A DNA stretch of 64,000 nucleotides from NCBI GenBank assembly GCA_949361645.1, contig OX442428.1, forward strand, positions 7,786,964 through 7,850,963. The letters run 5' to 3'. The DNA comes from Spongilla lacustris (taxonomy: Eukaryota > Porifera > Demospongiae > Spongillida > Spongillidae). The translations under genes were made by a program, and so were the position numbers. Of the stretch, positions 3,380 through 57,200 are shown in pieces. The notes beneath the pieces were generated by a model that was not told the origin of the DNA, searched no databases, and saw only the letters and a program-made list of their open reading frames with translations. Every line of letters begins with the position of its first letter. Positions within the stretch are counted from its first letter, which is position 1.

Positions 3380-5573
3380 ACACTGGAGCATTCCTAAACT
3401 ATGTCACATTGGAAGGGGGAGGAGGTACTGATCAAACAGTGTGACAATGTATACGTTGGTTCATACATTAGTACTGGATAATACAACATGACGGGGGGAA
3501 GGGGAGAGGGAGGGAGGAGGGAGGGAGGAGGGAGGGTTTTGAGCAGAGAGGATGATCCATAATGGCAAAAATGCATGGCATAGTTTGTGAATGCTCCACA
3601 ACACACATACACACCAATGGACCAATACCTTCTCTCCAGACCTTTTTGCATTACCTCATACCTAGATCTATTTCTGTTGCCTCCTCCCCAGACCTCACAC
3701 TAGCACATGTTGACTGCCTCTTACCAATCGGAGTGCTCTCCTGGCTGTAGGGTCCCATCTTATCCCCCACCTTAATGGCCACTGCTACTGTGAAGTCCTT
3801 AAATGGAGGCATCTGGCCTGATAGTACCATGTACAGGGAGGGGGAGGAGTCCACTCCAGCTAATGTGATATACACTGGAGTGGTCCCTGTCTGTGTGAAG
3901 CGTACCACCATACTCCATGGCTGGTGGATAGGCTGCTGAGTGACATTGAGGTATAGCTGTCCATCAGAGCCTGTTAGGGTACTGAGAAATGGCTTCCCTG
4001 AAAGTGAAAGATAGTGATGGGGAGGGTGGTGATGATGTGATGATGGGTGGTGATGATGGGTGAGGGTGGGGATGATGTGATGATGGGTGAGGGTGGTGAT
4101 GATGAGGGGTGGTGATGATGGGTTGGAGGGTGGGGATGGAGAAGACATAAATGAGAGAAGTCAGTACCTACCAATGATGGTGCAGTAAAACATCTCCTTG
4201 ACGGTAAAGCCCTTCCAGGAGAACTGACATTGGTATACACCAGAGTTCTGCACCAGCCCACTGGTCAATGTTAGGTAGGAGGTCATGGTGTTATTGAGGT
4301 CATCAACTGCCACTGAGGGGGCTGTGGTGACCATAAAGCGACCTGAGCCAGCAATGGTGGTCACATCCAAGCCATTGAGGTACCAGGTTACCATGGGGAT
4401 ACTGCTATCAAGAGCACTGCCATACTGCACCTTGCACATGAAGCTGTTGTCTGTATCTCCACCTGGCATATAGACAGCAGCACTGGTCTCCTGGTACTGG
4501 CTGACCACTTCCAGAGGAACTGAGGGGGGAGGGGGGCAATGGCATGGGAAAGAGAAGCATGGGGGGCAATGGCATGGGGAGGAGAAGCACGTGGGGATAC
4601 GAAATAAAACAAATGGACAAAAAATGGTGAAGTATATGATCCATAGGGCACATATAGCGGGTGCACTAATTGAATTGGCTTGACCTCCCCCCCCCTTCTC
4701 CACCGGTAAAATGCACCAGCTGGTACATGTACTAACAATTTGTAGATTGCTATGGGAATTGGGGGAATTGTGCGCCTGGAACTTCGCCCACACAAATACA
4801 AACAAAACTATTAACACTCACTATAGACGTCGAGAGTCGCGTATGTTGAGATAATCCCACCTCCCAGCGGCATTGGCAGCGTCACTGTACACTTGTAAAC
4901 CCCAGAGTCCGCTTTCGCCACACTCGGGATGGTCATGTTGAAGTTCGGGTAGGAGAGCGGAGGAAATAATGTCGTGGTCTGCTGGTGATACCACTGGACA
5001 TTGCCATTGTACAGTTTGGACGAAAGCGTTCCTATACTTGAGCTAAAGAGACAGGGGAGGTTGGCCTGATGTCCTCGTGCCACTGCCAGCGAACTGTTCG
5101 GGGCTATCTTCGGATACGCTGCGCAACGATTAATCATAGGTATTTGATATAAAAATACATTCAGCTGCGTGGTAAACTGTTTTATATGGTTCGCGAATCT
5201 TACCGATGAGGGTAACGTTATTTGTTGAGGTGGAGCTGGTTAAGGCTGCGTTCCTACATATGTACGTACCCTCGTCCAGCGCGGGCGACAGCTCAAACAC
5301 CATGTACGTGGCGCTGCTGCCGTACGCGTTCGTTTCAGTTTGGTAACTCACGATCCTGTAATCGTTCATTCTGAAAAATTGCGTTCCAGTCCACCCGGCT
5401 CCGGGGTAACACACTAGGGACACGATATTCTGATAGGACGACTTCGTCGATCGCTCCGCACATATGGTAGCTTGCATGGTACTTGGAGGAGCGCACGGCT
5501 GGAAGGCAAGAGCAGTCTGGTAGGTGAGAAGCAGCAACAGGCAACCGCACACGACTTTCCCTAAGAGCTGCAT
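2360..5573 (-). CDS. Receptor gene C: 3 Ig domains + Fn3-like + TM + tyrosine-motif tail
   Basis: Exons are 5204-5573, 4822-5118, 4172-4519, 3725-3997 and 2360-2937. All introns are GT-AG and phase 1, and the joined frame is open for 621 residues. Exon 1 gives a signal peptide (about residues 1-23) and Ig1. Exon 2 is Ig2 (C, WYHQQ, DSGVYKC). Exon 3 is Ig3 (C, VTWYLNG, NSGVYQC). Exon 4 is Fn3-like, ending [10 protein letters not shown]. Exon 5 has a cysteine-rich membrane segment (about 444-469) and a tail. The tail carries a tandem SDGPSA repeat, YEEL (Tyr about 533), a VPAPPAPP stretch and YVEI (Tyr about 580). These motifs suit phosphotyrosine-SH2 and SH3 binding. The likely role is a surface recognition or adhesion receptor; the ligand is unknown. 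Gene A is its closest relative. Confidence 0.85.
3044..3195. repeat. Minisatellite in intron 4 of gene C
   Basis: About five copies of a GGGAGGGTATGGGTGGAGCAAT-like unit (26-29 bp). The paired array in gene A is at 24160-24395 and has more copies. Confidence 0.8.
3354..3375. repeat. CA microsatellite, intron 4 of gene C
   Basis: An (AC)n run. The counterpart in gene A (24540-24625) is longer and interrupted. Confidence 0.85.
4010..4137. repeat. GATGATGGGTGGT array in intron 3 of gene C
   Basis: Degenerate tandem repeats of GATGATGGG and GTGGTGATGAT. The same intron in genes B (21330-21545) and A (25310-25530) carries expanded versions, so copy number changed after duplication. Confidence 0.75.
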
Positions 5574-19671: not shown

Positions 19672-22600
19672 CTAAGGAATTTCTTCATATGTATTTTCAA
19701 GTGCCCGATGTAGACTATCTAATCCTCTACATCTGATGCTGGGATGGTCTGATTGGACAGCACTCGAGCCTCCTTGGAGCTGCCACGGTTCATCCTCTGT
19801 AAGGAAATTATTTTCAAAATACACTTGTTTCTTTGCTGTGATGTCGGTCAGACCACCTTCCAGGTATCGTGCCTGCCAGCAGTACTCCTCCAGCAGTAAG
19901 ACCTTGGGCTCAGAGGCAGCACAATCACCATCATGACATACACCATCATGACATACACCAGATGGTGCTGGACCACCTGATGCATTATTGCAAGGCTTGC
20001 GCTTGTGCCTGAGGTGGCATGTGTAGGCAGTGAAGACAAAGACCACACAGACCAGCAGGAGCACCACAGCTATGAGAGCCACCACCACTGCTGACATCTG
20101 GGGCTGCTGCTTGATGAGAGAGAGCAAGGAACAGGAGGAGGAGGAGGGTGAGGATCCTGTTGGCAGGAGAATCATTATCTGCTAATTGTACATGCACAAG
20201 CTGTTGGTCTGGTGATGTGTGTTAGTAATGGACAACACATGTATTTAGGCACATTTCATCTGTTTCTATAGCAGCAGAAGTAACTAGGCAACCAATGATG
20301 TAACCCTCCCTCTCCCCTGGTATGGGGTAGTCCTGCCCACATATGCCTGAGCATTAGGGTGCTCGTGAATACACTAGGCAACATGTGGTGTTTGCAACTC
20401 AAATAAAAGATTCATTTGCTGACCATATTCATTTGAGTGCACGCAACATGTCACCTAGTATATATGTGTGATCCAAACCCCCTCCCCCCCCCCCCCTTGT
20501 AAGTGGAGCTATGAATGTTAAGCTATACAAATCTCCAAAGTCATTATAATAATTTTGATAGTTATGACTAGGTTTATGAATCAAAGAAACTGTTGGTGTA
20601 CCTAGAACTTGCAGCAATATACCGTAAAGTACCACGAATAAGCTCCACCCACTCCGCCCCCACCAAAAAAATATGTCTCGTGAATCATGAACGCAGCTGC
20701 TTGCTGTTCTTTAACATCCTGTTGGAGTAACATTTCTTTCCTGAAATGTTTAAACAGGTACACGGAAGCATTAACGAGTATGAAGATACGCTCGTTTAAA
20801 CATGAGATTTTTTATTTTTTTTGGTGGGGGTGAAGGGGGGGGGGGTAGCTTATTCAGGGTACTTTACAGTAATACCAATAGTCATAGGTGGGTCATAGGT
20901 ACTTGGATACACACTTCAAAGTCCATTTCTTATTACTTCCTCTCCAGACCTTCCGCCCCAGACCTTCACTTCCTGTTCCCCCCAACTATCCCCATCCTCC
21001 TCCTCCCCAGACCTCACACTAGCACATGTTGACTGCCTCTTACCAATCGGACTGCTCTCTTGGCTGTAGGGTCCCACCTGATCCCCCACCTTAATGGCCA
21101 CTGCTACTGTGAAGTCCTTAAATGGAGGCATCTGGCCTGATGGTACCATGTACAGGGAGGGGGAGGAGTCCACTCCAGCTAATGTGATATACACTGGAGT
21201 GGTCCCTGTCTGTGTGAAGCGTACTGCCATACTCCATGGCTGGTGGATAGGCTGCTGAGTGACATTGAGGTATAGCTGTCCATCAGAGCATGTTAGGGTA
21301 CTGAGAACTGGTGTCCCTGAAAGTGAATGATAGTGATGGTGAGGGTGGTGATGATGTGATGATGGGTGGTGATAATGTGATGATGGGTGGTGATGATGGG
21401 GTGGTGATGAGGGGTGGTGATGATGTGATGATGGGTGGTGATGATAAGTGGTGATGATGGGTGGTGATGAGGGGTGGTGATGAGGGGTGGTGATGATGAG
21501 GGGTGGTGATGATGGGTGATGGGTGGGGATGATGGGTTGGAGGGTGGGGATGGAGAAGACATAAATGAGAGAAGTCAGTACCTACCAATGATGGTGTAGT
21601 AAAACATCTCCTTGACGGTAAAGCCCTTCCAGGAGAACTGACATTGGTAGACACCAGAGTCCTGCACCAGCCCACTGGTCACTGTTAGGTGGGAGGTCAT
21701 GGTTTTATTGAGGTCATCAACTGCCACTGAGGGGGTTGTGGTGACCATAAAGCGACCTGAGCCAGCAATGGGGGTCACATCCAAGCCATTGAGGTACCAG
21801 GTTACCATGGGGATACTGCTATCAAGAGCACTGCCATACTGCACCTTGCACATGAAGCTGTTGTCTGTATCTCCACCTGGCATATAGACAGCAGCATTGG
21901 TCTTCTGGTACTGGCTGACGACTTCCAGAGGAACTGAGGGTGGAAAAGAAGCATGGGGGGGCAAGCAATGGCATGGGGAAGAGAAGCACGGGGGGGGGGG
22001 GGGGGGGGGCATACGAAATAAAACATGGACAAAAAATGGTATCCTCTCGAATGAGCACTATAGAGTTTACATAGCGGGTACACTAATTTAATTAGCCTGA
22101 CCCCCCCCCCCCCCTCCCCCCTTTTCCCCCACCGGTAAAATGCACCAGCTGGTAAACAATTTGTAGATTGCTATGGGAATTGGGGAATTGTGCGCCTGGA
22201 ACTTCGCCCCCACAAAAACAAACAAACAAAACTATGGAAACACTATTAACACTCACTGTAGACGTCGAGAGTCGCGTATGTTGAAATAATCCCACCTCCC
22301 AGCGGCATTGGCAGCGTCACTGTACACTTATAAACCCCAGCGTCCGCTTTCGTCACACTCGAGATGGTCATGTTGAAGTTCGGGTAGGAGAGCGAAGGAA
22401 ATAATGTCGCGGTCTGCTGGTGATACCACTGGACATTGCCATTGTACAGTTTGGACGAAAGCGTTCCTATACTTGAGCTAAAGAGGCAGGGTAAGTTGGC
22501 CTGTTGTCCTCGTAGCACTGCCAGCGAACTGTTCGGGGCAATCTTCGGATACGCTGCGCAAAAAATTACAGCGATTCAGTAGCGCGGTAAACTATTTTAT

Positions 22601-23468: not shown

Positions 23469-24539
23469 TCACAAGTCTGTTCTTAACAGCACCATACTCG
23501 CATCCATGACTGTATCTTCACATCCTTCACCATCGTCAGATACTCTATTTGTAGCCCCTCCTCGTATTTGATTAATTTCAACATATTCATTTTGATGTGT
23601 AGTGGGAGGAGCTGGTGGGGCAGGTACCAGGTTGCTGTCTTTGTCACATTGGCTGGCTTCTATACTCCTGTCTGTTACTGTAGGATTCCCTCCTCCCCTT
23701 CCCTCCCTATGATTTAACTCCTCATATTGTGGAGATGATTGGCCTCTCTCGCTGGGACATTGGGTGATACCATTCTCTTCATCCATGGTTGCCGCTCCAT
23801 CAGAAGCTGCCGCTCCATCAGAAGCTGCCGCTCCATCAGAAGCTGCTGGTCCATCAGAAGCTGCCGCTCCATCAGAAGCTGCTGGTCCATTAGAAACTGT
23901 TGTTTTGTGATTGCATTTCCTCCTGTCTTTGTGATTGCGCCAGCCTAGTTTATAGCAACACACACAGCAGATGAAGGAGCATGTGACCCAGCACAGCAGC
24001 CCTGACAACACCAAAGCAGACAGCCATAGGTGCTGTTTAATTAGGGTGGCTAGGGAGGAGGAGGGGGGTCCTATTGGCAGGAGGACAAGGGGTTAAAAAT
24101 TAATACATGGTTATTTCTATCAATAAATGCATAGCAGGAGAGGGGAGGGGCTCTACAAGTGGAGCAATGGGAGGGGAGGGTATGGGTGGAGCAATGGGAG
24201 GGGAGGGTATGGGTGGAGCAATGGGAGGGGAGGGTATGGGTGGAGCAATGGGAGGGGTAGGTGGTATGGGTGGAGCAATGGGAGGGGGAGGGTGGTATGG
24301 GTGGAGCAATGGGAGGGTGGTATGGGTGGAGCAATGGGAGGGGAGGGTATGGGTAGAGCAATGGGAGGGGGAGGGTGGTATGGGTGGAGTCTCCAACAGC
24401 ACAGGGCTAGAGAGATCTGCACCTGTCTCCCTAAGGGTAGCTGCTTATACAAGATGATCCATATTGCCTTAAACATTAACCTTCACTTTCAATATGGCCC
24501 TTTCTCTCTTTTTCATACCTTTGCATAACTGCATTATTA

Positions 24540-26096: not shown

Positions 26097-26973
26097 ACCG
26101 GTAAAATGCGAACTAAAAATAGTCCATTTATAAATTGCTATGGGAATTGTGCGCTCCAAAGTAGGCCTATTCGCCCTTGTATTTATATGAAACTGAAACA
26201 GAAATACATACAAAAAAACTAACTAACAAAACTCACTATAGACGTCGAGAGTCGCGTATGTTGAGATAATCCCACCTCCCAGCGGCACTGGCAGCGTCAC
26301 TGTACAAGTGTAAACCCCAGCGTCCGCTTTCGTCACACTCGGGATGGTCCTGTTGAAGTTCGGGTAGGAGAGCGAAGAAAATAATGTCGTGGTCTGCTGG
26401 TCGTACCACTGGACATTGCCATTGTACAGTTTAGACGAAAGTGTTCCTATACTTGAGCTAAAGAAGCAGGGTAAGTTGGCCTGTTGTCCTCGTAGCACTG
26501 CCAGTGTAGTGTTCGGGGCAATCTCCGGATACGCTGCGCAAAAATTACAACGATTAATCATGATATTGTATCAAATTAATTCAGCTGTGCGGTAAACTAG
26601 GTTCGCGAATCTTACCGACGACGGTAACGTTATTTGTTGAGGTGGAGCTGGTTAAGGCTGCGTTCCTACATATGTACGTACCCTCCTGCGCGGCCGACAG
26701 CTCAAACACCATGTACGTGGCGCCGTTGCCGTCCGTTTCGGTTTGGTAAAGGTTACTCACGATCGTGTAATCGTTCATTCTGAAGAATTGCGTTCTGGTC
26801 CACCCGGCTCCGGGGTAGCACACTAGGGACACGATATTCTGATAGGACTTCGTCGATCGCTCCGCACATATGGTAGCTTGGGTACTTGGACCGCACGGCT
26901 GGAAGGCAAGAGCAGTCTGGGAGGTGAGAAGCAGCAACAGGCAACCGCACACGACTTTCCCTAAGAGCTGCAT
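23469..26973 (-). CDS. Receptor gene A: 3 Ig domains + Fn3-like + TM + tyrosine-motif tail
   Basis: Exons are 26616-26973, 26237-26533, 25572-25919, 25020-25292 and 23469-24070. The phase-1 GT-AG layout matches gene C, with 625 residues. Domain order is signal peptide/Ig1, Ig2 (WYDQQ, DAGVYTC), Ig3 (VTWYLNG, DSGVYQC), Fn3-like, then a Cys-rich membrane segment and tail. The tail repeat is [12 protein letters not shown], coded by an 18-bp tandem repeat with about two more units than C, followed by YEEL and YVEI as in C. The last residues differ from C after a frame-changing indel near the stop: C has DESISGAVAGG where A has DASMVLL, and both resume RTDL. It begins about 1.26 kb from the divergent NOMO start. 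Confidence 0.85.
24160..24395. repeat. Minisatellite in intron 4 of gene A
   Basis: About nine copies of the GGGAGGGTATGGGTGGAGCAAT-type unit, against about five at the same site of gene C. Confidence 0.8.
24540..24625. repeat. CA/GCAC microsatellite, intron 4 of gene A
   Basis: A compound (AC)n run with a GCACGCACGCAC interruption, longer than in gene C. Confidence 0.85.
25310..25530. repeat. GATGATGGGTGAGGGTG array in intron 3 of gene A
   Basis: Third version of this intron array, with GTGAGGGTGGGGATGAT units. Confidence 0.75.
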
Positions 26974-28180: not shown

Positions 28181-28194
28181 TTGCGCATGCGCAA
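28181..28194 (+). promoter_or_regulatory. NRF-1-type palindrome at the NOMO promoter
   Basis: TTGCGCATGCGCAA is a perfect 14-bp palindrome matching the NRF-1 consensus (YGCGCAYGCGCR). It lies 42 bp before the NOMO start codon, a position typical for housekeeping promoters. No TATA box is seen nearby. Confidence 0.6.
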
Positions 28195-28235: not shown

Positions 28236-31200
28236 ATGTTGTTATCCAACTGCTTGCTTATTGTGGCTCTAGGGTTTCTGTTCACACCTTCATGTGCTCA
28301 AGACGTTTACGGGTGTGGAGGTTTCGTGCGCTCTCGCTTCCCTATTGATTTCGGACGGATCCAGGTATTAATACCAGCTTGGTATCTGGAGTCACCTCAT
28401 TAATATCACTCTATTCGGTAGGCAAAGCTGTTCACAAAAGGTGGTGTTCAAAAGGGAGCGGCAGAATGCGCCCCTACGAACGGATACTTCTTGCTCCCAG
28501 TGTATGACAAGGTACAGCCATGCAAACCCAGATACCTTAATAAATCCAAATTTCACCAGGGTGAATATGTTCTGAAATTGGAGCCGCCTTTCGGTTGGAC
28601 TTTTGGTTTGTTTTAAAATTATTTATCATTTCGTGTGTTTACAAAACAATTGTGAACGGCCTCGACCCCAGACCCACCAGCTGTTAGTCTGGTGGTCGAT
28701 GGCGAGACGGACGTGTGCAGTCGCTCACAAGACGTTAATTTCGACCTTCTCGGCTTCACGGTGTATGGTCAGGTACTGACACCTGGATGGATTGCCTGCA
28801 ATCTTAGCTATGGTGTGCTTTTTTCAGGTTCTTAGTCTAGGTCAGTCACAGGGTCCTCAGGGAGTTACTGTTGAACTGTTGAAAGCAGATGGCACTAAGA
28901 TTGATACTGTTACTGAAAGCCAAGGAAGGTGAGCCGGTGTGTGCATTATCATGGCTTTGGGTATGGTGATGGTGATGAGGCTGGTAGCTCAGAGGCAGTG
29001 GGTGGGGTGGTTGTTATGGTGATATCATTGGTGGGGTGGTTGTTATGGTGATAGTGTGTTCTTCTCTACAGGTTTTGGTTTGGTGGTGTGACCCCCGGGG
29101 TATATACTTTGGTGGCCTCCCATCAGATGTGGAGTGTTGGGAAGGTATGTTGAGAGGGAGGGAGGGGAGAGGGGTGGGAGATTTGAAGGTGTGAGTAGAG
29201 TTAAGAAAGTTGTGAGGGGGGTGGGTGTGGAAGGGGAGGTGAGGGGGGTGGGTATGGAAGGGGAGGTGTGAAGTTACATGTTCTTTTCACAGGCTGAAGT
29301 ATCGGTAAAGGTGGTCACTGACTCAGCAGAGATACCTCTAGGCAGTCTGGTTGTTACGGGATTTGATGTCAAGGTAGGATGAGTAGGAGGGGAGGAGATG
29401 GGGTAGGGGAGGAGATGGGAGGGTAGGGGAGGAGATGGGAGGGTAAAGGAGAGATGGGAGGGTAGGGGAGGAGATGGGGTAGGGGAGGAGATGGGAGGGT
29501 AGATGAGGAGATGGGAGGGGAGGAGAGGGTAGGGGAGGAGATGGGAGGGTAGGGGAAGAGATGGGAGGGTAGGGGAGGAGATGGGAGGGTAGGGGAAGAG
29601 ATGGGAGGGTAGGGGAGGAGATGGGAGGGTAGGGGAGGAGATACACCCCATCCCTGCACCCTCACACCCTCCACCCCATCCCCTGCACACTTACACCCTC
29701 CACCCCATCCCCTGCACCCTCACACCCTCCACCCCATCCCTGCACCCTCACACCCTCCACCCCATCACCTGCACCCTCACACCCTCCACCCCATCCCTGC
29801 ACCCTCACACCCTCCACCCCATCCCCTGCACCCTCACAGCCTCCATCCCATCCCCTGCACCCTCACACCCTCCACCCCATCTCCTGCACCCTCACAGCCT
29901 CCATCCCATCCCCTGCACCCTCACACCCTCCACCCCATCCCCTGCACCCTCACAGCCTCCATCCCATCCCCTGCACCCTCACACCCTCCACCCCATCCCC
30001 TGCACCCTCACAGCCTCCATCCCATCCCTGTACCTTCTTCCTTCTCCTTCCTTCTACTCTCATGCCCACCTGGCCACATTTTCCTATTGGTTGGTTTCTC
30101 TACTTACCTTGTAGGGCTTTGTCAGAAGCAAGAAGGAGCCCATAGCCAATGTGCAGTTTCTGCTCTACCCTTTGGCTGCAGATCAGGTAAGTGGACATCA
30201 TGTCTTTGTGGGGTAGCCCTCACAGTTAGCAACAGATTGTAGCACATGTGCCTATTTATGTAGGGGGGTAAATGTTTTGGAGGAAGAACAAGGTATGTGT
30301 TCTTAATCGTCATGCATTTTTAAGGCAGATGGAGTGGGTGGAGGGGACTGTCCCTTGATGTCATGCATATCTCATGTTCAAACTGTGTAACACTTTAAAT
30401 AGCTATAATGAGTGAAAACATCTTAAATGTCATCTCTTACCAACCAACCTTATTCTTTTGGTTTGGTTTTAATCTATATGTGAGTATGGTCTGTTACTAT
30501 TGGAGATAAGGGTGTGGCTAAAATGGACAAACCCTGCTATTGGTTAAATTAACTCTGTTAGTGTGGACAGACTGTGATTGGAATGATCTGTTTCTTTGTA
30601 TCTACTTTAGCAGCTGGACTGCAAGAGGGTGATTGTTTCTGGTGTACCGGAGCAGCCATCTTGTGTGACCACATCAGGGGACAATGGAGACTTCGCCTTT
30701 CTTTCCTTACCTCCTGGACGATATAAGCTGGTTAGCTATAGCATTGTTAGTCACGTGACTGTCATGTGATTGTGGTGTGCTGTCACACTTAGGTACCACA
30801 CTATCATCACGACCAGATTGTCTTTGAAGTGCTTCCAACTGAAATGATGTTTACAGTCGTCAACGATACCCTTCACCTTAAGGTATGGCTTAGTTGCTAT
30901 GGAAATGTTAGAAGTGTGATCATCGGGTCACTGATAAAATTACTAAAGCTATGCCAGGGCTGCAGTTACTAAAGCTATGCTAGGGCTGCAGTTACTAAAG
31001 CTATGCCAGGGCTGCAGTTACTAAAGCTATGCCAGGGCTGCAGTTACTAAAGCTATGCCGGGGCTGCAGTTACTAAAGCTATGCCGGGGCTGCAGTTACT
31101 AAAGCTATGCCAGGGCTGCAGTTACTAAAGCTATGCCAGGGCTGCAGTTACTAAAGCTATGCCGGGGCTGTAGTTACTAAAGCTATGCCGGGGCTGTAGT

Positions 31201-31562
31201 TACTAAAGCTATGCCAGGGCTGCAGTTACTAAAGCTATGCCAGGGCTGCAGTTACTAAAGCTATGCCAGGGCTGCAGTTACTAAAGCTATGCCGGGGCTG
31301 CAGTTACTAAAGCTATGCCGGGGCTGCAGTTACTAAAGCTATGCCAGGGCTGCAGTTACTAAAGCTATGCCAGGGCTGCAGTTACTAAAGCTATGCCGGG
31401 GCGGCAGTTACTAAAGCTATGCCAGGGCTGCAGTTACTAAAGCCATGCCAGGGCTGCAGGTGTAATTTAATTGTTTCATTTTCTAGCCTGCCTTTGAGGT
31501 CCAAGGATTTTCAGTGACTGGTCGAGTGTTGAGATCTGCTGAGGTAAGCAAAGGGCAGGAGA

Positions 31563-31598
<36 letters not shown>

Positions 31599-34500
31599 TT
31601 AGTGAGGGAATGAGGCAATAGGGTGAGGGAAGTACAAGGGAACTGCAAAGGTGAGTTTATGGGAGAGGCAGGCCTAGATGTTGTCTTATGGAAGAGGGAG
31701 GTCTGGATGTTGTCCTATGGTAGAGGGAGGTCTGGATGTTGTCCTATGGGAGAGGGAGGCCTGGATGTTGTCTTATGGAAGAGGGAGGTCTGGATGTTGT
31801 CCTATGGGAGAGGGAGGTCTGGATGTTGTCCTATGGTAGAGGGAGGTCTGGATGTTGTCCTATGGGAGAGGGAGGTCTGGACGTTGTCCTATGGGAGAGG
31901 GAGGTCTGGATGTTGTCCTGTGGGAGAGGGAGGCCTGGATGTTGTCCTATGGGAGAGGGAGGTCTGGATGTTGTCCTATGGTAGAGGGAGGTCAGGATGT
32001 TGTCCTGTGGTAGAGGGAGGTCGGGATGTTGTCCTATGGGAGAGGGAGGCCTGGATGTTGTCTGGGAGGTCTGGATGTTGTCCTATGGGAGAGGGAGGTC
32101 TGGATGTTGTCCTATGGTAGAGGGAGGTCTGGATGTTGTCCTATGGTAGAGGCAGGCCTAGATGTTGTCCTATGGGAGAGGGAGGTCTGGATGTTGTCCT
32201 ATGGTAGAGGCTGGCCTAGATGTTGTCCTATGGGAGAGGGAGGTCTGGATGTTGTCCTATGGGAGAGGGAGGTCTGGATGTTGTCCTATGGGAGAGGGAG
32301 GTCTGGATGTTGTCCTATGGGAGAGGGAGGTCTGGATGTTGTCCTATGGGAGAGGGAGGCCTGGATGTTGTCCTATGGGAGAGGGAGGTCTGGATGTTGT
32401 CCTATGGTAGAGGGAGGTCTGGATGTTGTCCTGTGGTAGAGGGAGGTCTGGATGTTGTCCTATGGGAGAGGGAGGCCTGGATGTTGTCTGGGAGGTCTGG
32501 ATGTTGTCCTATGGGAGAGGGAGGCCTGGATGTTGTCTGGGAGGTCTGGATGTTGTCCTATGGGAGAGGGAGGTCTGGATGTTGTCCTATGGTAGAGGGA
32601 GGTCTGGATGTTGTCCTATGGTAGAGGCAGGCCTAGATGTTGTCCTATGGGAGAGGGAGGTCTGGATGTTGTCCTATGGTAGAGGCAGGCCTAGATGTTG
32701 TCCTATGGGAGAGGGAGGTCTGGATGTTGTCCTATGGGAGAGGGAGGTCTGGATGTTGTCCTATGGGAGAGGGAGGCCTGGATGTTGTCCTATGGTAGAG
32801 GCAGGCCTAGATGTTGTCCTATGGGAGAGGGAGGTCTGGATGTTGTCCTATGGGAGAGGGAGATCTGGATGTTGTCCTATGGGAGAGGGAGGTCTGGATG
32901 TTGTCCTATGGGAGAGGGAGGTCTGGATGTTGTCCTATGGGAGAGGGAGGTCTGGATGTTGTCCTATGGGAGAGGGAGGTCTGGATGTTGTCCTATGGGA
33001 GAGGGAGGTCTGGATGTTGTCCTATGGGAGAGGGAGGCCTGGATGTCGTCCTATGGGAGAGGGAGGTCTGGATGTTGTCCTAAGGGAGAGGGAGGTCTGG
33101 ATGTTGTCCTTAAGGGAGAGGGAGGCCTGGATGTTGTCCTGTGGGAAACAGGCAGTCCAGTACTGTTCAGAAAGTAGGCTGTTGAGGTTCTCATATGTGT
33201 GTGTCATGCGGTTAGTAACTGTAGTTATTGTATTATGGGCAGAGGTGGGGGAGGTTTAGCTAAATAACAATACCATAATATCAGCCATAGATTGATCAGA
33301 TGCATACAAGTGGTACTGAAGTAAGTGTAATGGTCCCTTATGGCTATCCATGCCTTCTGAAGTAAATAATAGATATCTATGCCTTCTGAAGTAAGTAATG
33401 GTCCCTACTGACTTTAATAATAACTTTATAATAACTTAGTGGTGTCATTTTATTTGCGTCACATGATTAAAAGGAGACGTGGTCACCCATCACAACCATC
33501 TGCGCAATGTGTTGGTGGAGACTTGCCGTAGAGCCCACTTGAGTGTGAAGGTGGAGATGGGCAGCAACCTTACTTCAGACCATGACCACTCACGCCCTGC
33601 AGACATTGTGCTACCCAACTGGGCCCTGCTGCCTTTGATATCTCAGTGACATCACCGCTAAATCCAAAAATTGTATCATGCAGTATTGTCAGCAGGGGCA
33701 GCGAAAGGAAGCCATGGACTCATTTAATATGCTTGCCTCCCGTCTTGCCATAATATCGGGCAAAACAAAGTCAGCTGTGCTGTGTGAGCTGTTTAGTAGG
33801 CACAACCTGCATTTGGTGAGAGCAAATGCAACAGCGATCCTCTCCAGGTGGCTAAAGTTTAATTCTGACCATCATCACTGCTTTGACCATCATCACTGCT
33901 CTGACCATCATCACTGCTCTGACCATCACTGCTTTGACCATCATCACTGCTTTGACCATCACTGCTTTGACCATCATCACTGCTCTGACCATCACTGATT
34001 TGACCATCACTGCTCTGACCATCATCACTGCTCTGACCATCATCACTGCTCTGACCATCACTGCTTTGACCATCACTGCTTTGACCATCATCACTGCTTT
34101 GACCATCACTGCTTTGACCATCATCACTGCTTTGACCATCATCACTGCTCTGACCATCACTGCTTTGACCATCATCACTGCTTTGACCATCACTGCTTTG
34201 ACCATCATCACTGCTTTGACCATCACTGCTTTGACCATCACTGCTTTGACCATCACTGCTTTGACCATCACTGCTCAGACCATCACTGCTCTGACCATCA
34301 CTGCTTTGACCATCATCACTGCTCTGACAGTTACTTACATCTATATCTGGTTCCACCAGATGTGTTGTCTTGAATACCCAGATCATGTGCAACTTCCTTC
34401 TGCTACAGTCTTCCTTCTACACACTCTCCCTCAGTTATCCTTGTGGTGTGACCTGTACCTCCACGCCTGTAACAGCTTCTTCATTTGAAGGTGGACACCG

Positions 34501-37500
34501 TGTGTAGCTTGCCTCTTCAACTTTGTCTTCGTCCAGCTTCAGCAAACTGTGTGTGTCCTTATATGGACAACCTCAAATTGCCACAAGATACACACAGTGC
34601 TGTGGGTTGCATTTTAGCAGTATGTATGGGCCCAATTTTTGGCACATCTTTTATTGTTTTTGCCCGCTCACTTCCCTTCCACAAACTTCATTGGTTTATC
34701 TTTGCCATTGGCACTCGCTTTTGGTCCTTGTTTTAGGCATGTAGCCACATGTGTGTGTTCTCCTCACACCCACCAATTTTAAAACTGTCCCTGGTCATGG
34801 GTGGGCTAGTGCGGTGGCTGTCCCTGGTCATGGGTGGGCTAGTGCGGTGGCTGTCCCTGGTCATGGGTGGGCTAGTGCGGTGGCTGTCCCTGGTCATGGG
34901 TGGGCTAGTGCGGTGGCTGTCCCTGGTCATGGGTGGGCTAGTGCGGTGGCTGTCCCTGGTCATGGGTGGGCTAGTGCGGTGGCTGTCCCTGGTCATGGGT
35001 GGGCTAGTGCGGTGGCTGTCCCTGGTCATGGGTGGGCTAGTGCGGTGGCTGTCCCTGGTCATGGGTGGGCTAGTGCGGTGGCTGTCCCTGGTCATGGGTG
35101 GGCTAGTGCGGTGGCTGTCCCTGGTCATGGGTGGGCTAGTGCGGTGGCTGTTGCTCGTATATATTTACCAAGTCACTGTGGTTGAATCCCTACCATTGAG
35201 CTCCTGTTCGTTGATTTTTGATCTCACAGTGCCTCTCAAGTGGAGGCGCTTTCTTTTGGGATCTTGGCTGTTCATTACTATGAAGTTCTCTTGATGCCTC
35301 AGTGCGCATCTGGTGTCTCTTTTGGCAGGGATAATGCAGTCACAAATGGTTCAATTAAAAAAAAAAAAGAGTTTGCCGTAAGTACAGTAAAATGTCGCGT
35401 TAACAAAACTACCCTTCGAACACAAATTTTGACGCATGCGCGACATGTGACAGCTGCTGCCGAATCGTCGTGTATTATACCGGTGTCATGGATTTGGTCG
35501 ACAACGATTGCCCAGAAGCGCCTTTTTGCTATGCGACATCGCTGCTTGCGAGTTCGGAGGGTTTTCCCGAAATTGAATTCTCCGATACTGAAATAATAAA
35601 AGAGGAGGAGGTATCTGACTGCTTCCACGAAGGGGGGTATAACTCGGACAGTTCGTTGGATAAAGAAGCGGATGGATTCCCGGAGAGAGACGACTCTGAT
35701 AACGAGAGTTCTTCGGAGAAAGAAGGATGTAAGAAGGAGGCTAAAAACAGGAAGGAGCGAGAGAGGGTGGAAAAAATGAACTCGGCGTTTGTTGAGCTGC
35801 AAGGATTGCTATCGCTTACTGCAAAGACCACTAAGCACGACACACTCGTAGCTGCTGTGGAGGAGATACAACGCCTGGAACTCAATATCATTCAGCTCGC
35901 TGGACGCTGCGCCGTGCCCAAGCCGCTGGGTCGCAAGCGATCGCGGATCTCCGGCAAGAAGAGGCCGCCGAATAAATTTTTGCAGTTTTCAAAAGCATTC
36001 AGAGGCAACTTTCTACACTTGCTGCAAGATTACAAAAAGGTTGACCGCGTCGACAACAGAGAAGTTACGAAATTTCTGAGCGTTGTTTGGAAGCATCTTG
36101 ATGAAGACGAGAAGCTTAAGGACTGGACTACAGCCTCGCTTCAAGAGCGCAAGCGGTGTACTAGCTTGGCGATGACCATGCTGTCCGCAATCGCGTAGTT
36201 GCTGTTAATATCCGCTTAGCCACGCCCACTCGAAACACGCTGACTGCTTTGATGCTGCATTTTGCGCATGCGCATTGCGACCAGTACTCATTCTCTTTGT
36301 TTTATAATGAAATGTACTTTGACAGTGCTTTGTATTTGCGCGGTAGGGAACTATATATGTATGTCTCAAACCCTTGCTGCCTTTGTAAAGATCCGTTTGC
36401 ATTCCTCATGAAAGATTATTTCATAGATGGGTGGAATGTTTTGTGGTCGTTTATTGCAGCTGTGTTTTTGGTTCAGACACAGCTGGAATTTGTGGTAATG
36501 TAGTTTTATTCCAGCTGTGGTGTTACAGGGCAAAGATTAGTAGCCCCTTGTGTTGTGGTTTTGTTTTGGTGAATGGGGCTGCATGTTGTACATGTAATTC
36601 TGGGTGGCAATGGTGTAGGGTTCAAGGTACAGCAAGGGCCAATGGGGAGGGAGGGGAGGTAGTGGAGATAGGAGGGGTGGTAATGGAGATGGGAGGGGTG
36701 GTAGTGGAGATGGGAGGGGAGGGAGTGGAGATGGGAGGGGAGGGGTGGTAGTGGAGATGGGAGGGGAGGTAGTGGAGATGGGATCGGAAGTAGTGGAGAT
36801 GGGAGGGGAGGTAGTGGAGATAAAGTGAGGGTGGAGATGGAATACAGAGATAATGAAGACTGGATGTGAGGGGAGGAAGGGAATTATGTATGACAGGAAA
36901 GTGTTTAAATATCATATATAGCTGTTGTCACCTTCAGTTTCAATATGTTCTTTTAGGGGCCACCAATTGTGGGAGCCACTGTGTATGAGTCAGGTGTTGT
37001 CAAGGCAACTACAAACAGCGAAGGGCGGTACCAGCTGTTCAACATCACCACTGGTGACTATATGATTATGGTGAGTTATTAACAACAATATGCACTAGCT
37101 ACATGTAGGGCCATGCTCTAGGTAACAGGGCCATGCTCTAGGTAACAGGGCCATGCTCTAGGTAACAGAGCCATGCTCTAGGTAACAGGGCCATGCTCTA
37201 GGTAACAGGGCCATGCTCTAGGTAACAGGGCCATGCTCTAGGTAACAGGGCCATGCTCTAGGTAACAGGGCCATGCTCTAGGTAACAGGGCCATGCTCTA
37301 GGTTGGCCATCAATCTTATTCATCCTCAAGCTTAGGGTTCTGTATACCCTCCTCATCCCCGCACCATCTTCCTCTTCCCCATACCCTTATCGCTCATCTT
37401 CAGGTTGAGGCACCAGATATGGAGTTTGATGAGTTGCAGATCTACGTTACCCCAGCTACCCCCTATCTTGTGGACATCAGTCCTACAAGGTGTGTGTGGG

Positions 37501-51295: not shown

Positions 51296-54200
51296 TGTGG
51301 TTTGTGATGTTCATAGCGCTATCTGCACATCCATTTAAGCTGCACTGGAGTCACAATGACATTGAATAGGCAACCTGAACCAGGTGTGACTGTGGAGGTG
51401 AGTGGGTGTGGTGTGTGACTGGAGGTGAGTGGGTGTGGTGTGTGACTGTGGAGGTGAGTGGGTGTGGTGTGTGACTGGAGGTGAATGTGTGGTGTGTGAC
51501 CTAGGGGATGAGAGTGTGGTGTGTGATCATGGAGGTGAGTGATTCATGCTCCCAGTACAGTACTGTCGTGTTCCTCAACGTTGGACGCGGAATGTATGAG
51601 ATCAGATAGCAAAACAAACAGGAAATGATAGCACTCAAGAATACAGGATGCAGTACAGAGAAACAGTGCAGGTTATATACTTGCCTAACACAATAACACA
51701 ATACACAAAGGTGCGGGTGTCATTGTGCGCAAAGGTGCATGCATGTAACAAAGAGCGGCACTCCTCTAGTCAGAGGGGTGCGCATTAGTGTCCTCCCAAT
51801 TAGCACATCATCATAACATCTCCCTGCCAGCCTTGAAGTACCGTGAGAAGGCGAAAACTCTCATTGTCCATGTGGTTTCCTTCTGGATGAGCGACGTGGG
51901 TTGTCTGGACCATATTGGTCACCTGTTGGCCAACGAGGGTTTCGACGCTTTGACTGCCCAGGCTCCTGTGATGGACCAGAGGTTTCCATTGTCGGGCAGG
52001 GTGCTGCTACCTCAGAATTCAAGGCAATGACAGGAGTAGTTTCAGCTGTTTCTTGCACAAGGGGATCTCCCTTCAGTGTGCTGGCCGGAGCTGGCACTTC
52101 TCCTGGGTCTGCATCTTGATCCACACCATAACGTGGTCGCAGCTGCTCAATGTGGCGTCTCCAGGTTCCACCACGAGGAAACACTCTCACATTCACACTG
52201 CGAGAACCAAACACCTTAGTAACCACTGCTGGAACCCATCTAGGATCTCTTTCACGTCTGGGGCCACAGTATAGAGCATAGCAGGGAGTGCCCACAGTGT
52301 AGATGGGAGCCACTAGCTGAGGAGGCTCCTTGGCTTGGGACTGTGCTGCTGCCTTGGCCTGTCGACCTTGAGCCATGTTTGCTGGAGATGGAAGTAGAGC
52401 ATCAATCTGGGTTCGGATCTGGCGGCCATTTAGAAGTTCACTTGGCGAGTACCCTTCAGCCAATGGTGTCCGTTGGTATTGCATTAGGAACTCTTGCAGT
52501 GCCGCCCGAAGTGGTAGAGAGGATTTTGAGAGAGACTGTTTGAAAGTCTGCACCAAACGCTCTGCTGCTCCATTTGTGGCTGGATGATATGGGGCACCCG
52601 TCAAGTGAATAATGCCCCTCTCCCTACACCACGCCTGAAACTCCTCAGATGGGAATGAAGATGCATTATCTGAGACAATGGTGTGTGGGTATCCAAAATG
52701 GGCAAAGTCTTGCTCTAGCAGCTCAGTTGTTGACTTGGAGGATGTAGATGTTGTTGGATGAATGCAAGGATATTTTGAGTAGGCATCTATGAGGACTGGC
52801 CAGTTGGTGCCCAGGAAGTTAATTGCATGATCTATATGTACTCAGCTCCAGGGTTTCTCTGGGAGTATCCATGGATGGTTGGCCGATTTGGGTGGGTTTG
52901 ATATGTGCTCTGCACATGTAGTGCACTTGTGGCAGAGATCTACAATGTCAGCATCAATGTGAGGCCAGTAGACAGCAGTACGGGCAAGTTGCTTCATCCT
53001 TTGCATGCCGAAATGTCCCAGATGCAGAAGCTGTAGAACTTGAGGTTGAAGACTTGAGGGAATAACCACTCTAGAACCATACAGGAGGCATCCATGAGCT
53101 GTGGAAAGAGAAACTGCCAGCTTCTGAAATATCTCCAAGGTAGTGTCTTCTTCTTATCCCCCTTTCTGAGGCCAGCCTTCTCTGGTGTATCGCATGACCT
53201 TGGAGATGGTGGGATCTTTGTTAGATTCTTTAGCCAGCACACCAGGATCCAAGGGATTCAACTGCAAACCGATGGTATTGATGATACAAACTGTGTCCAC
53301 GTCTGCTTCCTCTTCCCCATCATCAAATGGTGTATCTGGACCAGCAGGAAGGCGACTTAAGGCATCAGCATTTCCATGATCAGATGTTTTCCGATACTCA
53401 ATGGAGTACTCGTACTGGCTGAGCATCAGGGCCCAACGAGCCAGTCTGTTTGCTGCCAGGGCTGGGGTTGCTTTTGTTGGTCCAAACAGGGCAAGAAGAG
53501 GTTTGTGATCAGTGACTAAAATAAAACAGCGTCCATACAGAAACTGATGGAACTTATTCAGTGCAAAGATGATGGCTAGTGCTTCCTTTTGTATTTGGCT
53601 GTACCCCCGCTGGGTAGTTGTGAGTGTCTTAGAGGCATTTGCAATGGGGCGCTCACTACCATCATTGTACCGATGAAACAGGACCGCTCCCACCCCGACA
53701 TCTGAGGCATCACAGGAGATTCCAATGGGAAGAGATGGATCAAAATGTGCCAATACAGTGTCTGCACCAAGAAGGTCCTTCAGCTTCAGAAAAGCGTCTG
53801 CTTGTTCTTTACCCCAACTCCATGGACTGTCTTAGTGAGGCGATGAAGTGGCTCTGTGATGGTAGCCAAGTTTGGCAGAAACTTGCTGTAGAACTGTATA
53901 GAACCTAAGAATGATCGAAGACTAGCTACATTTTCAGGTGGTGGCATCGCTTTGACTGCATCCACCTTTTGTCCTTTGGCTACCCCTTTCTGTGAAAGGG
54001 TGTGTCCCAGGTACTCAATGGAAGGTTGGGCGAAGGAACACTTCTCCAAACGGCAACGGAGACCCTTTTCTTCCAGACGTCTTAGGAGAGCATGAAGGTT
54101 CTGGAGATGTTCGGCTGCCGTTGCCCCACTGACCAGGATATCATCCATGTAAACCGCCACTCCTTGGAGGTCTTTGGTCAATTTATCCATGATTTCCTGG

Positions 54201-57200
54201 AAGTAGCCTGGTGCTGAGCTGATGCCAAAAGGAAGTCTCTTTTGGAGAAGAACCCCTCGATGAGTACTAGGAGCCAACCGTTTCTGACTCTCAGGTGCAA
54301 GTTGAATCTGGTTGTAAGCATATGCGAGATCAATCTTTGTAAACCCATGACCGCCACCCAACCGTTGCATTAGGTCCTCTGGACGTGGCATGGGGTAACG
54401 ATGTGGTTCTAGCTTAGGGTTTACTGTAACTGAATAGTCCCCACAGACTCTCAGTTTGGGTGACACCTGACCAGGAAGGGCTGCTTTGCGGATAGGTACA
54501 ACTGGAGTGCCATAATCGTTGAACTGGATAGGTTGCCAGACACCCTTAGCCATTCCTGCATCGTAGGCTTTGCATAGGTCGTCTTGGATTGAGAAAGGAA
54601 CCACACGAGGCTTGCAGAAAACAGGTTTCATACTAGGCTTGAATTTCACCTCCAGTTGGAAGTCCTTGAGACACCCCAGCTCAGTCTTGAAAAGGTCCGG
54701 GAACTCCTGACATAGCTTCTTGCAAGCCTCTTGCAGAGCCAGGTCTGCTTCGGGTGCATGAATGGTTTTAACAGAGAAATTCTGTTGAGCCTCAGAATGC
54801 ACACCCATCAGAGCTGAAACATTGATGCTAAGCTTGACAATGACATCACGTCCCAGGAGATTAAGCTTTGGGATTTTGGCCACCGTGAAGTTCAGGGGTA
54901 TGCTGGAACTTCCATCTTCCTGAAGTGCCACAGATGCAGTGAATACTCCCAATGTTGGGAGGGGCTGACCATTTGCAACTTCATAGCAGCTTGTTGCTCG
55001 GGTTAGTGCTGGTCTTCCCAGCTTCTTCCATGTGGCTTCTGCACAGAAGTTGTCCCCAGCACCTGTATCAACCTCAAAAGTGAACGTCTCCCTGTTCACT
55101 TTGATTACCTGCTTCAGTTGAGGGACAGCTTTGGCTTCTTTCACTGTCTGGATCCGCTGCTTAATAGCATTCACTGACTGCTGCTCGCTCTTCTTCTTTT
55201 TAAGGCAAACCACCTCGAGATGCCCCGTCTTGTCGCAGAAGTAGCAGACTGCATCTATGAATGGACACTCAACCGCTTTGTGATCATTCTTCCCACAGCG
55301 GGGGGCAGGTACCATAGGTGAAATCTGGTCCACCTTTACGTCCCCGATTCTGTCTTCCTGGAGGCCGGATTTGGTTCACTGGGCTGGGACTTGGCTTAGA
55401 TCCATAAACCGTCTCTTTAGCCACTTTGGCAGCTTCTTCAGTTTCCACAGCAATGGCTATGGCTTTGGCGAAGGTGAGCTCCCCGTCGTTCACCCTGAAA
55501 AGAGCCTTGAGGATCGCCTTGTTGCCCACAGAGCACATGAAACGGGTGCGGAGGGCCTCGTCTAATGGATCTTTGATGCGTGGGAAATCGCAGGTGACTG
55601 CATCTTGACAGATGCGTGCCGCCAGCTCCTGGATCGTCTCACCGGGCTTACGACGCATTTCACTCCAAAATTTAAAACGTTCCCTGACGACGTAACGGGT
55701 GGGGTCGAACTGCTCCTTCATGAACGCTTCTATCTGTTCCAGACTCAGGCCGTTGACGCTGGCGGGTGGTGACTGTTGAGAAGCTAGGTTGCTGAGAAGT
55801 TTGTAGGTGACTCGCGACTGGTTCGTCAGGAATACCTGAGCTCTCTTCTCTTGCGGGACCGAATTTGCACCCAAAAAGGTCAGGAAACGCGCCCAGTAGT
55901 CTGTCCAGAGTTCCGCTGTTGAGTCGAAAGGCACGAAACTGGGAATCGCTGCTGCGGAAAACTCGAGATCGCGGGGGGGCCTGTCGGCTTCGCGGGTGAG
56001 CACCGCAATGAGGGCTTCCATCTTTTTCCGCTGTGCTTCGGCCAGAGCTTCAGTCTGCTTTTTCTGTGCCTCCAACTGCTGTTGCAGCAGCACGATCAAC
56101 TGCGCTGTTTCCGACATTCTGTATATTTTACTCCGATCTGATCCTGCCGACTACGCCACTTTGTCCTGTCGTGTTCCTCAATGTTGGACGCGGAATGTAT
56201 GAGATCGGTAGCAAAACAAACAGGAAATGATAGCACTCAAGAATACAGGATGCAGTACAGAGAAACAGTGCAGGTTATGTACTTGCCTAACACAATACAC
56301 AAAGGTGCGGGTGTCATTGTGCGCGGTGCATGCATGTAACAAAGAGCGGCACTCCTCTAGTCAGAGGGGTGCGCATTAGTGTCCTCCCAATTAGCACATC
56401 ATCATAACAAGTACCCCTTAACTCCTTAACCCTTTAACCACCACAATAGGTGTAGCTAAATTGTGCACACCTGCAAAGCACCACAAAGAAAACAAGATGG
56501 TCATAACATCCTGGGATTTATGTAGGCATTCTGTAGGCATCCTGTGTTCTGAATGCAAAACCATCAACATGCATAAGTTGTCACCAGCTTGCATCCAAAC
56601 TGGTCACCTTGGCTGCCAATGATCCATCTCTGGCTGGTGCCAATCAGGGATTTATCACTCCCACCCCCTCTCCACCCTTACCCACCCCCCTTGTTTGCCC
56701 CTAATTTGACTAACCCACCTCCTGGTTTACACATGCCATGTCAAAATAAAACTGCAGAGGGAAGACTTTCATTTTTGCCCACCCCTTATATTTACATATA
56801 TTTCGAAACCAACCCCCTGTGGCTGGTGCCAATGGTCCATCTCTGGCTGGTGCCAATGGTCCATCTCTGGCTGGTGCCAATGGTCCATCTCTGGCTGGTA
56901 CCAATGGTCCATCTCTGGCTGGTGCTAATGGTGAACCTTCGTGCGTGCGACATTGTCACTGCAGACATGTACACTGGCAACATACATGTAGACTGACTTT
57001 CTTCCCGCACACATAACCTTTGATATCTCTACCGTCACATCACTTTCTGTACAACCAATCACATATAGAGGGAGCATAGTGTCTGTCTAGTTCACTATGT
57101 TCAACCAACAGAAACATGTATTATATGGTGTGTTGGTGTGTCGTGGTGTGTGTGTGTGTGTTGGTGTGTCATGTGGTGTGTGTGTTGGTGTGTGTGTGTG

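Follow-up and report, generated by a model that had tools for sequence, protein, structure and literature searches.

A bHLH plus HMG-box gene nested in an intron of NOMO in the sponge Spongilla lacustris

We analysed a stretch of 64,000 nucleotides from Spongilla lacustris (assembly GCA_949361645.1, contig OX442428.1, positions 7,786,964 to 7,850,963 of the forward strand), referred to as the window, which carries a small gene at 35488-36198 on the plus strand. The gene is a single open frame of 236 residues that runs from ATG to TAG without an intron, and it lies within an intron of NOMO, on the same strand as its host. The results confirmed the observation of a first-pass annotation, made from the letters of the window, that an intronless gene for a protein with a basic helix-loop-helix (bHLH) domain and a high-mobility-group (HMG) box is nested here. 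The same frame is already open upstream from 35404; the ATG at 35488 is the methionine that starts four of the five homologues, while the fifth carries an extension ahead of it. The joined plus-strand frames around the gene match human NOMO2 (E 4.7e-32), and NOMO extends, judged by eye, from about 28236 to about 61.7 kb. We dropped an additional NOMO exon considered at about 35331, immediately 5' of the nested gene, because the two exons that flank the gene (Table 1) join in frame. The first-pass annotation had also placed the DNA in an early-branching animal, which agrees with the silicatein-type genes and the small bHLH set of a demosponge. The serine-type active site CGASYAF, which we take to be the mark of silicatein, was found in 5 of the 30 loci opened from 148 cysteine-protease matches in the genome.

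We searched 5.8 billion proteins and scored 1053 candidates. The results showed five relatives, all with E <1e-80 and with identities of 98, 74, 75, 64 and 80%, the last over 67% of the query. Both domains are present in each of the five, one of which has a shortened N-terminus; in the alignment, a large part of the acidic N-terminus is missing from P0006. A profile search (best 8000 candidates) gave the same five and no further relatives, as did a search that used the most divergent of them as query (547 candidates), and pattern searches of bacterial and archaeal genome contigs and of viral contigs gave 374 and 272 matches, none of which was confirmed. Mean pairwise identity, calculated over five rows with the near-duplicate P0002 left out, was highest in the basic region (85%), followed by the linker (81%) and by the HLH and HMG core (80% each); the N-terminus reached 65% and the last 26 residues 55%. 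The conserved homologues led us to reject a chance open frame or a pseudogene. Judged from these sequences, the gene belongs to a sponge family that has been maintained and whose domain pairing is rare.

The bHLH domain scored over the Pfam HLH cut-off in all six family proteins (the window protein and its five relatives). Its basic region reads KNRKERERV, and E90 and R93, the E-box Glu and Arg pointed out in the first-pass annotation, are invariant in all six proteins, as is ERERV. Group A basic regions are told from those of group B by having no R at position 13 with ERxR kept. The family profile matched a set of group A rows (E47, TCF4 and two from this genome) at 96.4%; for a set of three Myc/Max rows the match was 0.9%, and none of 40 shuffles exceeded 3.8%. 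A group B (Myc/Max) bHLH was rejected by this low match and by a constrained tree of 27 rows (p 0.024). In a 41-row tree, the four sponge family rows fell within a 27-row branch (99/95) that holds group A types as well as AP-4 and ID1. Their stem measured 3.2 changes per column, and no family was resolved. In the 27-row tree they joined ASCL1 and a sponge orphan, L009 (83/85); this tree carried a long-branch warning and did not recover the whole of group A. The family stood outside the atonal superfamily in the free trees. We therefore place the domain, on its sequence, as an orphan group A bHLH with no firm fit to a named family. It resembles the group A factors (E-proteins, FIGLA, ASC and the atonal superfamily) in basic region, loop and second helix, but none of these families fits firmly, and we know of no HMG box in any of them.

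The bHLH may nevertheless belong to a known group A family (ASC-, FIGLA- or E-protein-like) and have evolved fast, an HMG box being added to it in sponges. Constrained groupings in the 27-row tree gave p values of 0.174 for FIGLA, 0.209 for E-proteins, 0.090 for AP-4, 0.164 for the atonal types and 0.066 for STRA8, none below 0.05. In the 41-row tree, FIGLA gave p 0.445 and the E-proteins p 0.55, the held tree being slightly better than the free one. Neither FIGLA nor the E-proteins were thus rejected, and the joining with ASCL1 and L009 in one tree also favours such an origin. According to an excerpt of PMC1828162, Amphimedon has 16 bHLHs, of which two are linked to ASC families, one to atonal/twist and one is an orphan; in its main text, 'HMG' is used once, about Sox genes. 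The stem of 2.0-3.2 changes per column across the bHLH trees stands against this explanation, and because of that length any family placement is possibly an artefact. We regard membership of a known family as possible but doubtful.

We also searched the genome (248.6 Mb in 51 contigs, with the window on contig C15) for HLH domains. The results showed 17 places, corresponding to at least 15 loci when two split pairs are counted once; this is a lower bound because of intron-split genes. One of the loci, L018 (C3:17434555), encodes an E-protein bHLH that grouped with TCF3/TCF4 (98/100) in the 41-row tree. L009 (C1:1221692-1221847) is a second orphan of group A type (KRIQKNARERQRVAQVRNQYNVLRRTL), likewise on a long branch. 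At L015 (C11:679010-679168), the bHLH lies in one long open frame of at least 623 residues within the locus, together with a segment that, judged by eye, could be a PAS domain; the arrangement resembles that of nuclear receptor coactivators.

The C-terminal part missed the curated Pfam HMG_box cut-off in all six proteins (14.4-19.9 bits versus 25.4). Its profile matched SOX plus CIC/BBX/HBP1 (human rows) at 96.9% and CIC/BBX/HBP1 at 96.3%, versus 38.3% for own HMGB-type rows and at most 14.0% in 40 shuffles. In the HMG tree, the sponge rows lay in the sequence-specific branch (100/99). An HMGB-type box was rejected by these two results, and by sequence the box is of the sequence-specific class (SOX/TCF/CIC/BBX/HBP1). 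The best PDB sequence match was BBX, with E 0.0015 for the single sequence and 0.00036 with the profile; HBP1 and CIC were also matched. The predicted model of this part is confident and helical, with helices at 163-183, 190-203, 206-209 and 218-235 and a rearranged end. A structural search of the PDB with it, read from the Foldseek VIA-align listing, gave HMG boxes in 32 of the 50 matches listed; with the whole model, the listing was taken up by helical hairpins that match the bHLH but are unrelated. The HMG-like segment reported in the first-pass annotation is thus predicted to take an HMG-type fold. The box resembles those of CIC, BBX and HBP1 in its KRP.N.F start, in its profile and PDB matches and in a DNR motif, which it has in common with BBX and with CIC and HBP1. 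It differs from them in six extra residues ahead of helix 2 and in a displaced third and last helix, and CIC, BBX and HBP1 are not known to contain a bHLH.

Alternatively, the C-terminal part could be a derived helical module that serves to contact other proteins or to stabilise the dimer, leaving the bHLH alone to bind DNA. The score under the Pfam cut-off, the insert ahead of helix 2, the displaced last helix and a structural match that stops short of that helix are all in line with such a module. In contrast, N162, F164 and L165 of helix 1, at what we take to be the DNA wedge position, are invariant in all six proteins, as is the DNR motif, and the basic linker leading into the box is conserved. 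A module of this kind is in our view rather unlikely.

Residues 1-79 contain 25 D/E and 4 K/R, and residues 1-81 are predicted to be disordered (pLDDT <50). This agrees with the acidic N-terminus described in the first-pass annotation, which had also noted the basic linker; the two are a possible activation region and a possible nuclear localisation signal, respectively. Taken together, the gene probably encodes a small sequence-specific transcription factor in which a group A bHLH is combined with an HMG box. The dimer partner, DNA binding, activation and promoter that we infer would fit together as follows. The bHLH would dimerise, with the E-protein of this genome (L018) as its most likely partner, and the dimer would read E-boxes through E90 and R93. 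The HMG box could then make a second contact nearby, in the minor groove and with bending, or bind a partner protein, and the acidic N-terminus could activate transcription. The gene probably arose when an ancient group A bHLH became fused to an HMG box of CIC/BBX/HBP1-like type, either in the sponge line or before it.

The gene would be transcribed from its own start within the NOMO intron. An NRF1-like palindrome (ACGCATGCGC, one mismatch) lies 56 bp 5' of the ATG, and a perfect copy at 28183 lies 53 bp 5' of the NOMO start at 28236. A third NRF1-like palindrome was found at 36264, 66 bp 3' of the stop of the nested gene. Three palindromes in the window were reached by 3 of 100 window shuffles, and the motif is sparse in other loci (14 copies in 232,070 bases, 4 of these being from the nested gene itself, seen twice). 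Between the palindrome and the ATG there are two E-boxes, CATGTG (35444) and CAGCTG (35451). This arrangement suggests a promoter of its own, with possible self-regulation through the two E-boxes. A sigma-70 promoter scan, with a model not meant for animals, gave nothing usable.

Table 1. Positions of the nested gene, its parts and its surroundings in the window
Feature	Position	Strand	Basis
Exon of NOMO 5' of the nested gene	31487..31543	+	Exon order, splice signs, NOMO match of adjoining exons
Intron of NOMO holding the nested gene	31544..36956	+	Much of the rest minisatellite arrays
NRF1-like palindrome	35432..35441	+	Motif scan; promoter role putative
Two E-boxes	35444..35456	+	Role putative
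Intronless coding frame, 236 aa (acidic N-terminus, bHLH, basic linker, HMG box)	35488..36198	+	Frame, homologues
Acidic N-terminus, residues 1-79	35488..35724	+	Composition, alignment, pLDDT
bHLH domain, residues 82-131 (Pfam span)	35731..35880	+	Pfam (E 5.8e-10), alignment, group A profile match
Basic linker, residues 139-157	35902..35958	+	81% mean identity
Divergent HMG box, residues 158-236	35959..36195	+	Pfam, PDB sequence matches, tree, predicted model, structural matches
Exon of NOMO 3' of the nested gene	36957..37070	+	NOMO match

The first-pass annotation had interpreted the gene as a possible MEIOSIN/STRA8-type meiotic regulator. This interpretation was partly supported, in that the domain layout stood but a specific tie found no support. 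Neither of the two outcomes that the first-pass annotation had named as speaking against it was obtained: the C-terminal part is predicted to be of HMG type, albeit with a rearranged end, and the bHLH showed no firm grouping within some other family. MEIOSIN (BHMG1) is longer than 236 aa, and the sponge bHLH differs from it in being canonical group A. A passage of PMC9604137 gives both MEIOSIN and STRA8 bHLH and HMG domains, so that the sponge protein and MEIOSIN are alike in having both in one protein; MEIOSIN is known here by this description, and the sponge box is divergent and under the Pfam cut-off. Excerpts of PMC6392498 place the bHLH of STRA8 at residues 28-79 and an HMG box, proposed by Phyre2, at about 216-268, and report an acidic stretch and binding to CNCCTCAG. 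STRA8 and the sponge protein are therefore alike in the order of bHLH and HMG-like domain and in having an acidic stretch, which lies ahead of the bHLH in the sponge protein but between the domains in STRA8. Part of PMC12289312 reports that zebrafish meiosin is expressed ahead of meiotic entry. On that source, MEIOSIN has a zebrafish ortholog and is therefore at least as old as bony vertebrates, which makes a deep origin possible.

The sponge gene could on these grounds be a member of the MEIOSIN/STRA8 group, an early bHLH-HMG meiotic entry factor whose canonical E-box residues were later lost in STRA8. The same rare pairing, in the order described for STRA8 and with the two domains described for MEIOSIN, the age of MEIOSIN and a bHLH that has no firm fit to another family would all be accounted for. 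However, when mouse STRA8 was ranked among itself and 1000 shuffles, the HMG profile put it at rank 39, the whole profile at rank 865 and the HLH profile last, at 581 of 581 reported. It matched the family profiles at 6.7% for the HMG part and 0.1% for the bHLH; this negative is weak because STRA8 was also not recognised by ordinary bHLH profiles (0.3% and 1.9%). Holding the sponge rows with STRA8 gave p values in the approximately unbiased test of 0.066 for the bHLH and 0.06 for the HMG box; the grouping was neither formally rejected nor supported. Vertebrate STRA8 is reported in a passage of PMC10600341 to carry an LXCXE motif, a type that binds RB, but LXCXE was found in none of the six family proteins. 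All six contain ERER, contrary to the lack of E-box determinants in STRA8 reported in an excerpt of PMC7810945. The CIC/BBX/HBP1-like HMG box also stands against membership. In all, the sponge protein differs from STRA8 in having ERxR and in lacking LXCXE, and these weak comparisons detected no sequence link. A search of this genome with the STRA8 query found no STRA8 gene among two candidates, which shows little. In the literature searches, the titles and abstract starts among the matches listed gave no bHLH-HMG protein in sponges and no MEIOSIN/STRA8 in non-vertebrates. The likeness to MEIOSIN/STRA8 is one of shared layout, and we consider membership of that group unlikely. That the gene is a living relative of the ancestor of MEIOSIN and STRA8 is likewise an improbable hypothesis. 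In this view, the first animals would already have had a bHLH-HMG factor that, together with an E-protein, read E-boxes and brought germ cells into meiosis; if true, the meiotic entry switch of vertebrates would date back to the animal root.

The protein search of the genome found one intact copy, that on C15. Its two other matches, both on C13, were rejected as a second intact gene since both are decayed fragments, one spanning 115 bases at 90% identity and the other about 290 bases at 75% (with gaps). The longer fragment retains the stop codon and continues into 3' flank as far as the equivalent of window position 36351. That the frame is itself a decaying retrocopy without function, as its lack of introns and the decayed fragments on C13 might suggest, is highly improbable, because the frame is open, relatives of 64-75% identity retain the domains, and the broken copies are those on C13. 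Close to the fragments (L004 and L005, C13:8142500-8160900) there are tandem repeats of about 488 bases that contain a coding-like frame.

Animal transcription factors rarely combine two sequence-specific DNA-binding domains in one fusion, and to our knowledge bHLH plus HMG is otherwise known from MEIOSIN and STRA8 only. What stands is a maintained sponge family in which this rare pairing joins an orphan bHLH to a derived, CIC/BBX/HBP1-like HMG box. The sponge gene turns the age of the MEIOSIN/STRA8 switch from a vague question into a concrete one. An additional bHLH type also matters for reconstructing the gene set of the first animal, because sponges have few (16 in Amphimedon, according to the excerpt of PMC1828162, and at least 15 here).

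Elsewhere in the window, Rfam at gathering thresholds gave no match. A 33-base repeat at 34785-35151, present in 11 copies with 100% matches, ends about 340 bases 5' of the nested ATG and is probably a recent expansion. Within NOMO, minus-strand frames at 51864-56150 (gag-like, reverse transcriptase/RNase H and integrase) resemble, by eye, those of a Ty3-type retrotransposon. The minus strand at 216-27006 holds repeated frames with Ig-like domain motifs (e.g. 216-656, 4814-5239, 22249-22575 and 26226-26570), with membrane-tail frames among them (2363-2959, 19675-20181 and 23472-24092), and judged by eye this region could be a tandem array of Ig receptor genes.
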